Of a stretch of 15,891 bases of DNA, positions 114 to 5,617 are shown piece after piece; the stretch's first letter is position 1, and every line of letters begins with the position of its first letter. The notes under the pieces are model-generated. The model searched no databases. It was not told the DNA's origin and saw only the letters and a list, made by a program, of their open reading frames with translations. Made by a program: the position numbers and the translations under genes. The DNA lies in assembly GCA_016098155.1 (NCBI GenBank), contig JAAAJB010000715.1:1-15891 (forward strand), in the 5' to 3' direction. The stretch is from Actinomortierella ambigua (Eukaryota > Mortierellomycota > Mortierellomycetes > Mortierellales > Mortierellaceae).

Positions 114-1067
114 ATGGAGAACATTAGCAACTTTTTGAATGCCGCAAAAAAGGTTTGCATCTCTTTAGTGTGCTCTAAGTCGCGTCGACTCTTGTTCCTG
201 CAATCCGTTCTAGCGACTAACCAATGTACCTCTCTGTATTCAATGTACACAGCTTGGAGTACAAAGCTCGGATCTCTTCCAAACTGTCGACTTGTACGAA
301 GGCAAAGATATGGTCCAAGTATGCTTTTTTTTTTTTTTTTTTTTTTTTGGGACAGCATATCTTCAAGTTGATACGACACTTTCTCACACAACCTATCCCA
401 CGCCATTGATTCAAATGTTTTAGGTCGTGTCGACGATTTTGACATTGGCAAGAGTAGTGGGCATTGTTGGAAAGCCACTTCAGCCCTCAAATACAGCACC
501 AGTAGCAACTCCTCCACCCACATTGAAGCGGCCAGGTCCAGCGCCGCTAGTTGTACCGGACCTGGAGCAAGGGCCCAAATCCACCCGTGCAGCAGCACAA
601 CTCGCATCCTCGCCATCCGCCTCGGCACAACCGCTCACGCGCATGCGTTCCAAGACGGCACACACACCATCGATTGCCTCCTCGACACCTGTTATCCGTC
701 CGTCCAACTCTTCTTACTATGCGGCACAGATCCGGAAACTGGAAGAAGACAGTATCCGGTATTCGACAGGAATTGAGCAGCTGCAAAAGATGGGTCTACC
801 TATTGTTCCTCCCGTAGTCGTGAAATCGACACCAGTGCCACCAGCGCAACCAGCACCAGGACCTGTTGCAGGATCATCAACATCATCGTCATCACCATTG
901 ATTTTGACCAAGGAACGGCACTTGAGTGCTCCAGTACCCCCCAAAGCACAACTGCGTGAAAAGGCATCGAGGCGGCCTATTCTGGACGATATTGTGGCAG
1001 GTGTAGAATCCAATTTGGTTCTGGACAATGAAGTGTCGGCAGTAACAGGGGTAACGACCTCGCGTGG

Positions 1068-1098
<31 letters not shown>

Positions 1099-3460: not shown

Positions 3461-3501
<41 letters not shown>

Positions 3502-5617
3502 AGCGGTCGAGTGTAGATTCTGTCACGACTATGTGAAGAGCCGGGCGGTGATCTGTCAGGATTGCAGCTTGGTGTTCCACAAAAAGTGTCAACCCTTTGT
3601 TGGAGATACTTGCTTCCCCAACGTCATTTCGTTCTTCCAGCAGGTGCCGACGCCAGCACAGTCGGTGCCAAACCTCAAGATGGTCGCCAACGGTATGCAA
3701 GCCAACGATGGTAGTCGACCCAACTCCCGAACATCCATGAACACACGAGAGCGTGCACGATCAGTGACACCTTCTCACAAGTACAGGGGAGGCGGAGATG
3801 ATCCGTACTATGCAACCTCTGAGCAACAACAACAACAACAACAACAACAACATCTCGGCCGACCTTCCAGCCGCCAGTCCAATAGCAGCAGTCCAACATC
3901 ACCAACCCTGGCAGGACTGAAGAACTTTATCGCTGGGTCTCGCCGGTTCTCGTTTGGTACCAAGAAGCATCAGAGCGCGGCTGTGGCTGAGCCCAGTGTC
4001 GTTACCGCGGCCGCAGCAGCAGCTACGCAGACAGCCTTTGGCCATGGCTACATGACCTCGCTTCCTACGCCACCGACGTCTCTCTCATCGTCTACGAGTC
4101 TTGTGTTTACACCCTCTTCTGGCGCTAGTGGTCCGACTCCTGACCACCACCAGCAACGTCCTCCTACTCGTCCAATGTCGCAGTCGGCGGTCCCGATCAC
4201 GAAGGGAAGTGGAGGTCGACATCGACGAGAGTACTTTATTGGGTTGGTGGATCGTGAGGAAGAGGAGGACCTTGCGTCGTTGTCGTCGTCGTCTTCGTCG
4301 TTTGGTAAAGGGGTGTCGTCGTCCTCGGCCGTGTTCCGGATGAGTCACAATACTACACGACCGAGCGCGATGCAGTTGTTTTCGACGAGCGCACCTTCGT
4401 CGCAGATGAGCAGCGGCTTTGGTGGTAGTGGCAGTGGTGGGCGTGGTTTATCACCTCTTCGCGGGGCTCGGATCAAGCACAGTGCGTCTTCGACGACGTT
4501 GAAGGGGCTTAACGACGAAGACGAAGAAGTGGACGAGGAGGATGCTGGAGAGGGCGGAATGGAGGATGAAGACGAGGATGCCGTGACCAGGACGACTGGA
4601 CGGTTCCATGCTGGACGACACACCAAGGGCAGCAAGCATCAGAGCGACGACTTGGAAGAGGATGATCTGGACGCGTTGCTTGTTCCGTCAGCAGTGGTAG
4701 CAGCAGCTAAAGCGTCCTCTCCTCCTCCACCACCACCTCCATTCAAGGGAGTGTTTTCTCGTGCCAGTGCTCAGCTTGGCCATGGTGCCTTATCGTCGTC
4801 TTTGAATCACGTGGCGGAGGCTCGTTCATCTGCACACTCACGCCAGAATCATCATCATCCCCACTCCCACTACAACCAGGGTGCCTTGATGAACGGCACA
4901 GCAGCGACGACCGCTACGACCACGAGCCCCGGGGCAGTGGGAGCGCGTCAGAACGGGTACCACTCTTCTGGATCGTCGACAGCAGCGATGACGTCGTCGT
5001 ATTCCTCGACGTCGAACAACAGTTCACCGGCGTCGTCGTTGGGTTCTGTAGCGGCGTTGCTGGAGGAGGAGGATCGGATGTTGATGATGTCGATGATGAT
5101 GCGTGAGCAGGCGGCGTCGTCGTCAGGTTCGCCAGCGGCGCCGGTTGGCAAGAGCCATGGTGATAATGGTAGTGGTGGTGGTGGAAATGGGGTGTCGTCA
5201 TCGTCGAGTCATGTCGGGATCCGGACGATGCTGAACCGGTTCAACCAGCATCAGGCGACGGGTTCTTCTGCTGGAGCGACGGCTGCCGACCTCCACTATC
5301 AGCGCCCTTTGCACCCATTGAAGACGTTGTATGATGTGGATGAAGATGCACAGCCACACTACTTTGAACACCAGCACCAGCACCAGCAGGCTTCTCCGGG
5401 TGACATGTCATCGCCCCCCGATGTCAATGTGCTGACACCTGGAGGACATCGTGAGACAGCATTGGGCCTGAGCTTTTCGTCCAAGCAGGTGCAGGAGGCC
5501 TTTGAGATGGCGGCTGCGCACGAGCAGGCAGCGCTGGGGCTGAGTGCGCCGCCGGGACCTGTCCAGGCACGGGCTCGCCGGAATAGCCGTGTGTCTCGAC
5601 GAGACCTTGATCTTTAA
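114..5617 (+). CDS. CH domain - Cdc7/Cdc15/SepH-type protein kinase - C1 zinc finger (5' partial)
   Basis: Hand-built exons: 114-152, 253-318, 424-1776, 1898-1944, 2051-2493, 2618-3367, 3504-5617 (stop TAA). Junction phases are consistent and 1603 residues are visible. Residues 1-50 are the C-terminal half of a CH domain (MENISNFL, LGVQSSDLFQTVDLYEGKDM, VVSTILTLAR). The linker at about 50-486 is Ser/Pro/Thr-rich, with a nine-Gly run. The kinase domain spans about 488-737: Gly loop GRGQFGAV, Lys515, HCDLKAANIL (Asp608), DFG 626-628, GTPNWMAPEVIEL, SDIWSLGC. The HCD and APEVIEL blocks point to the septation-initiation/mitotic-exit kinase family (S. pombe Cdc7, yeast Cdc15, Aspergillus SepH), which acts in a spindle-pole cascade triggering septation. 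Poly-Gln covers about 777-815. A C1-type finger covers 890-936 (H890, C903, C906, C917, C920, H925, C928, C936). The remaining ~660 residues are low complexity. CH and C1 domains suggest actin and membrane targeting (inference). The kinase assignment is firm; the specific SIN role is likely but unproven. Confidence 0.85.
325..348 (+). repeat. Poly-T run (24 nt) in kinase intron
   Basis: An uninterrupted run of 24 T lies in the 319-423 intron, just after the GTATGC donor. It is too far from the acceptor to be the usual polypyrimidine tract. Its length is likely to be unstable or imprecisely sequenced. Confidence 0.95.
1066..1092 (+). repeat. (GGT)9 trinucleotide repeat encoding poly-Gly
   Basis: Nine GGT codons lie in the linker of the kinase gene, between the CH and kinase domains. 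They are followed by Gly/Ala-rich and Thr-rich segments, so this part is expected to be disordered. Confidence 0.95.
2510..2601 (+). repeat. Poly-C plus (CT)n inside the kinase intron 2494-2617
   Basis: The 124-nt intron splits the Trp and Met of PNWMAPE. It holds a run of about ten C and then CT repeats reaching close to the TAG acceptor, so the polypyrimidine tract has become a microsatellite. Confidence 0.9.
3001..3112 (+). repeat. CAG/CAA repeat encoding poly-Gln
   Basis: Mixed CAG and CAA codons with occasional CCA give an interrupted glutamine tract (Q-rich with PP breaks) between the kinase domain and the C1 finger. The codon mix suggests selection on the peptide or an old, interrupted repeat. 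Confidence 0.95.
3461..3500 (+). repeat. Poly-C plus (CT)n at the 3' end of kinase intron 3368-3503
   Basis: A C-run followed by about fifteen CT units runs straight into the TTTAG acceptor. The arrangement is the same as in the 2494-2617 intron of this gene. Confidence 0.9.
3823..3850 (+). repeat. CAA repeat encoding poly-Gln
   Basis: A run of nine CAA codons, preceded by a GAG codon, lies in the disordered C-terminal tail of the kinase gene. Confidence 0.95.

Follow-up and report, generated by a model that had tools for sequence, protein, structure and literature searches.

Genes of the window and the gene model across two contigs

The window, a stretch of 15,891 nucleotides from Actinomortierella ambigua, is an entire contig (C680) of an assembly of 33.8 Mb. 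Its first gene comprises seven exons within the window, all in phase, each intron having a GT donor and an AG acceptor (Table 1); this gene, which the original prediction had ended at 3640, goes on to a stop codon at 5616-5618, and its product ends in RRDLDL, without a CaaX box. Downstream lie a gene for a GHMP-type kinase (N and C domain matches of 34.1 and 21.2 bits), whose GGWTDTPP motif, noticed by eye, we take to be reminiscent of L-fucokinase, and a single-exon gene for a PQ-loop protein (96.5 bits) reminiscent of MPDU1/Lec35. The same contig also carries a gene with a SPIN90/Ldb17 leucine-rich domain (162.2 bits), a family of actin-nucleation regulators, and an inverted repeat with 45-base arms that are 96% complementary and 48 bases apart.

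Table 1. Features of the first gene, on both contigs, and of the remainder of the window (positions are those of the window unless a contig is named)
Feature	Position	Strand	Basis or location
Exons 1 and 2 of the first gene	C310:31237-33482 and C310:34126-34192		end of C310 (34,312 bases)
CT-rich 3' end of intron, the 5' part of which closes contig C310	1..113	+	
Exon 3 of the gene, first in the window; CH domain MENISNFLNAAKK	114..152	+	phase, splice sites, CH match
Exon; CH domain continued	253..318	+	phase, splice sites, CH match
Exon; end of CH (to ~456), then long low-complexity linker	424..1776	+	splicing, Pfam
Exon; start of kinase domain, glycine loop GRGQFG	1898..1944	+	splicing, Pfam
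Exon; kinase domain, catalytic loop HCDLKAANIL (from ~2361), DFG	2051..2493	+	splicing, Pfam
Exon; end of kinase (to ~2883), Q-rich linker, start of C1 (from ~3336)	2618..3367	+	splicing, Pfam
Exon; remainder of C1 (to ~3613), long low-complexity tail ending RARRNSRVSRRDLDL	3504..5618	+	splicing, Pfam
Stop codon of the CH-kinase-C1 gene	5616-5618	+	end of last exon; no CaaX box before it
GHMP-type kinase gene	~6250-8890	+	N and C domain matches
PQ-loop protein, single exon	9781-10632	+	domain match
SPIN90/Ldb17 leucine-rich domain gene	11703-15171	+	domain match
Inverted repeat	15400-15444 / 15493-15537		

In the spliced window protein, the Pfam cut-offs were exceeded by CH (27.9 bits against 26), Pkinase (232.7 against 31.7) and C1_1 (28.9 against 26.5), and with the exons in phase this confirmed the prediction of a CH domain, a Cdc15-group kinase domain and a C1 finger in a single polypeptide. 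The CH match was partial (profile positions 62-106 of 109), in agreement with the earlier view that only the C-terminal part of this domain lies in the window. A search baited with the N-terminal half of the CH domain from relatives located the missing 5' exons in the same genome, at the very 3' end of contig C310, and their addition gave a complete CH domain (81.6 bits). Contig C680 starts inside an intron, and since C310 closes with a CT repeat and C680 opens with a CT-rich stretch, the two contigs seem to break within one intron. We infer that they are physically joined; the joined gene codes for 2374 amino acids, in phase and with an unbroken frame. Public models of six Mortierellomycota relatives (P0006, P0007, P0009, P0012, P0018, and P0020) start at 'MENIS', inside the CH domain, and the first exon of the window contig likewise begins there; since other models hold a full CH domain, this suggests that the 'MENIS' starts are annotation errors.

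The protein has a single CH domain of calponin/transgelin type; its best PDB matches are calponin-1 (2.9e-19) and transgelin-2 (1e-16), and it differs from these in standing N-terminal of a protein kinase. The C1 finger keeps all zinc ligands and matched the fingers of PKC gamma and PKC delta best in the PDB, with those of RACGAP1 and RAF-1 matching too. Its middle loop is 3 residues shorter than in the aligned PKC fingers, falling short of PKC length. RACGAP1 and RAF-1 likewise have a loop shorter than that of PKC, but their fingers sit in other host proteins, whereas the present one follows a Cdc15-group kinase. For the fungal kinases with a CH domain, a Cdc15-group kinase domain and a short-loop C1 finger we coin the name CHK; the window gene has the CH domain N-terminal of the kinase, a cysteine in place of the HRD arginine, and the short-loop C1 finger C-terminal of the kinase.

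Conservation of the architecture and the C-terminal CaaX box

Relatives of the window kinase were taken as the best 120 of 1777 matches, and a second CHK search, with a Mucorales relative as bait, gave the best 120 of 4156, of which 21 rows were shared with the first set. The first set had CH in 100 proteins, C1 in 114-116, and both in 95-97 (ranges by method), CH being absent from 20 and C1 from 4-6, and the second had CH in 78 (absent from 42), C1 in 115, and both in 74; where CH or C1 is lacking, annotation is perhaps the cause. All 155 of the retrieved proteins having the three domains kept the order CH-kinase-C1, and in an alignment of 36 members these domains were the main conserved blocks, with weaker conservation flanking the kinase and at the CaaX cysteine. 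The hosts by name, among the matches listed and with names grouped into higher taxa, were Mortierellomycota, Glomeromycotina, Calcarisporiella, Jimgerdemannia, Umbelopsis, Mucorales, and Basidiomycota. This survey across fungi found the architecture to be common to several phyla by name among these matches, and CHK, as judged from its sequences, is a widespread family.

These homologues also bear on whether the architecture could be a product of gene modeling. Several Mortierellomycota models do start at 'MENISNF', within the CH domain, as might be said in favor of two neighboring genes, one for CH and one for the kinase, having been wrongly joined; but the order is kept in 155/155 three-domain proteins from several phyla by name, and the exons are in phase, also across the C310-C680 join. 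Wrong joining is therefore scarcely credible, and a gene-model artefact was rejected on the constant domain order. The original prediction had named separate transcripts for the CH exons and the kinase exons as what would overturn it; the homologues speak against them, and two transcripts are, from this comparison, very unlikely, because that order recurs in hosts of several groups.

The architecture is real and conserved, and no earlier description was found in the literature searched. No account of CH or CaaX in a kinase of the Cdc15/CHK group appeared in the titles and abstract openings searched, a search with most subscription journals outside it. A term search of the available text of PMC2838846 returned no occurrence of calponin, CH domain, Cdc15, or C1 domain, and calponin had none in the available main text of PMC3591445, PMC5052723, PMC1420674, PMC4177888, and PMC6517510.

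Some individual records deserve mention. Among the matches listed, several Mucorales species names carry more than one CHK copy (five in Dichotomocladium elegans, four in Apophysomyces ossiformis, and three in Absidia repens), pointing to an expansion. In P0297 (Rhizopus delemar) and P0308 (Mucor ambiguus), the model that encodes the CHK kinase also includes a Ras GTPase domain, which reflects either a merged annotation of neighbors or a genuine link to Ras. P0036, recorded under the name of the fern Adiantum nelumboides, holds a fungal-type CHK protein and is probably a contamination.

At the C-terminus, a CaaX prenylation box ended 84 of the best 120 of 1777 window relatives and 55 of the 99 new CHK proteins of the Mucorales-bait search, two of the latter (P0297 and P0308) owing it to the Ras domain in the same model; at internal positions of CHK proteins the pattern occurred at 861 of 246,027, the CaaX and basic-tail patterns having been defined after some tails were inspected. 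Within the first set, all 84 boxes fell among the 95 proteins from outside Mortierellomycota, and none was found in the 25 Mortierellomycota models, several of which are partial; a basic C-terminal segment was present in 18 of 24 Mortierellomycota models tested. Of the 84 boxes, 48 had Q as the last residue and 32 had M; of the 55, 30 had S. By the rule stated in the available text of PMC6517510, such endings are suitable for farnesyltransferase. The frequent occurrence of a predicted CaaX prenylation box at the C-terminus of CHK relatives is new here.

CHK and the SepH/Cdc7 septation kinases as distinct clades

Using a provisional SepH kinase domain sequence as bait, we searched the same genome and found a second gene, on contig C17, whose identity to this sequence was 65% within a single exon. 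The spliced gene encodes HRDIKGANIL and GTPYWMAPE, and its downstream open frames resemble ARM repeats by eye. No second Cdc15-group gene had been seen when the genome was searched with the window kinase itself, a search that missed the C17 gene because that gene is split into short exons. From the 139 of 433 candidates scored, the same search also returned 138 further kinase-domain matches with 27-43% identity to the window kinase, on many contigs (C129, C82, C10, C624, and C742 among them); mostly they have one open frame over the domain, and often there are several to a contig. By eye, the C720 and C621 kinases look to be of Ssk2 type and PAK type. These matches suggest a large kinase expansion in this genome.

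The best 120 of 7791 relatives of the C17 gene, among them proteins named sepH, were taken as the SepH-type set. In line with the original prediction, which knew of no CH or C1 domains in the S. pombe and Aspergillus kinases of this family, neither CH nor C1 was found in any of these 120 proteins, and none ended in a CaaX box. Where CHK has C1, SepH-type kinases have an ARM-like tail: an ARM_ARMC5 match was obtained in all four SepH-type proteins scanned (30.2-45.5 bits and E values of 8.5e-12 to 3.7e-07, the cut-off of 79.9 bits not being reached), whereas no ARM-like match was seen in the window protein or in any of the seven CHK relatives scanned. Arginine stood at the HRD arginine position in 120/120 SepH-type proteins, and cysteine in 120/120 window relatives (best 120 of 1777). 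In the best 120 of 4156 from the Mucorales bait, cysteine was found in 117 and arginine in one (HRDLKAANIL), with two outside the pattern, one of which, P0085, does have cysteine at this position. The two groups have NILTTK and ASDIWS(L/V)GC in common but differ in HRDIKGANIL with GTPYWMAPE or GSPYWMAPE for SepH as opposed to HCDLKAANIL with mostly GTPNWMAPE for CHK. Mortierellomycota, Glomeromycotina, and Basidiomycota occur by name in both lists, among the matches listed.

In a tree of 32 kinase domains, from which provisional sequences were left out, the CHK and SepH families lay on opposite sides of a branch with 100/100 support, and constraining the window kinase to group with SepH cost 20.5 log-likelihood units (p-AU 0.0043). 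In the same tree, a duplication confined to Mortierellomycota was also rejected (p-AU 0.0008). In the trees obtained here, the nearest kinase clade to CHK is that of SepH, S. pombe Cdc7, and plant MAP3K-epsilon (STE11-CDC15 group). The single, very long outgroup branch attached to the SepH side of the 32-domain tree, so that CHK may have branched off from within SepH-type kinases and not be their sister group. After the addition of provisional sequences, plant MAP3K-epsilon grouped with SepH, a placement that is not firm (94/76). CHK forms a clade of its own, apart from the SepH/Cdc7 septation kinases, and both kinds are present in this genome.

The original prediction had CH and C1 fused to the septation kinase, which would make the window gene a SepH/Cdc7 orthologue that gained these two domains. 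The window kinase does belong to the Cdc15 group, and some relatives are named 'Protein kinase of the Mitotic Exit Network' or 'STE/STE11/cdc15 protein kinase'; against this stand the distinct SepH/Cdc7-type gene on C17, the p-AU of 0.0043, and the lack of an ARM-like match in the window protein. Placement of the window gene as SepH was rejected on these grounds, which leave a fusion of CH and C1 onto the septation kinase very improbable; judged by the tree, the window kinase is a relative of SepH and not SepH. A further idea is that CHK is the lineage that gave rise to budding-yeast Cdc15, a mitotic exit kinase under another architecture. The provisional Cdc15 sequence has NWMAPE and KAANIL in common with CHK, and grouping it with CHK was not rejected (p-AU 0.19); but neither was grouping it with SepH and MAP3K-epsilon (p-AU 0.206), Cdc15 is a long branch, and the A. 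nidulans kinome table, in the available text of PMC3591445, pairs CDC15 with SepH; we consider a descent of Cdc15 from CHK unlikely. Mob1-type genes are present in the A. ambigua genome, with six matches on three contigs, so that a SIN-like pathway that does without the window gene is at least possible.

Proposed role of CHK and the age of the septation pathway

Judging from domain content and relationships, we find it reasonably likely that the CHK protein is a cortex- or membrane-directed kinase that works beside the SIN kinase and is not itself the SIN kinase. Such a kinase would be held at the membrane and controlled by its location. Membrane attachment would come from the C1 finger, together in many lineages with prenylation of the CaaX cysteine, and the single calponin/transgelin-type CH domain would give contact with the actin cortex or a scaffold; single calponin-type CH domains are often unable to bind F-actin alone. 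With cysteine at the HRD arginine position, the location of the kinase may matter more for its activity, and phosphorylation of its activation loop less. In Mortierellomycota, including the window gene, the long tail, in many with a conserved basic end, might take over the membrane contact in place of CaaX. The membrane mechanism is weakest for the window gene, because its lineage has no CaaX box (0/25 models, some truncated). Of the link to membrane and contractile ring that had originally been proposed, it is the membrane part that gains support, from the CaaX box in many relatives, though the box is in none of the 25 Mortierellomycota models listed.

Atypical C1 fingers with a short loop are known for binding anionic lipids, small GTPases or other partners and not for binding diacylglycerol. 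Activation of the kinase by a C1 finger that senses diacylglycerol in the classical way would be in keeping with the full set of zinc ligands and with the PKC gamma and delta fingers as best PDB matches, but the middle loop is shorter than theirs by the 3 residues noted above, and 175 of 208 relatives have a loop of 10 residues (29 of the 208 C1 matches lie outside the strict ligand pattern); we regard this mode of activation as improbable and prefer a finger that would contribute to membrane retention.

The distinction bears on an earlier account of Rhizopus. The available text of the Rhizopus oryzae genome paper (Ma et al. 2009; PMC2699053) reports five Cdc7 homologs without the C-terminal tail and proposes that the Cdc7 tail and the septation pathway arose in Dikarya. 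RO3G_03201 (P0273), from the same R. oryzae strain and among the best 120 of 4156, has HCDLKAANIL and a C1-like end, so that at least one of the five tail-less homologs described in that text is probably a CHK; other Rhizopus proteins of the Mucorales-bait set carry CH too. The proteins that the paper, in its available text, classes as Cdc7 homologues are placed here in the CHK family, which, with the identity of the five inferred, probably accounts for the 'tail-less Cdc7 homologs' of that paper. An ARM-like match was seen in SepH-type proteins of Mortierella and Gigaspora and, by precomputed Pfam annotation, of Synchytrium, so the tail of SepH-type kinases looks older than Dikarya. SepH is the single STE11/CDC15 kinase named in the available text of the A. 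nidulans kinome paper (PMC3591445), and this fits there being no CHK in that species.

A broader picture, whose chances we see as evenly balanced, is that many non-Ascomycota fungi have a second, typically lipid-anchored Cdc15-group kinase (CH-kinase-C1-CaaX) at the plasma-membrane cortex beside the SIN kinase, that the 'tail-less Cdc7' of coenocytic Rhizopus is of the same family, expanded in Mucorales, and that the ARM-tailed SIN kinase is older than Dikarya. Two kinase families are told apart here that automatic annotation, and probably one genome paper, had merged, and one of them joins CH and C1 with a predicted prenylation signal in hosts that include arbuscular mycorrhizal fungi and mushrooms. 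The split between CHK and SepH bears on the date of origin of the fungal septation pathway.
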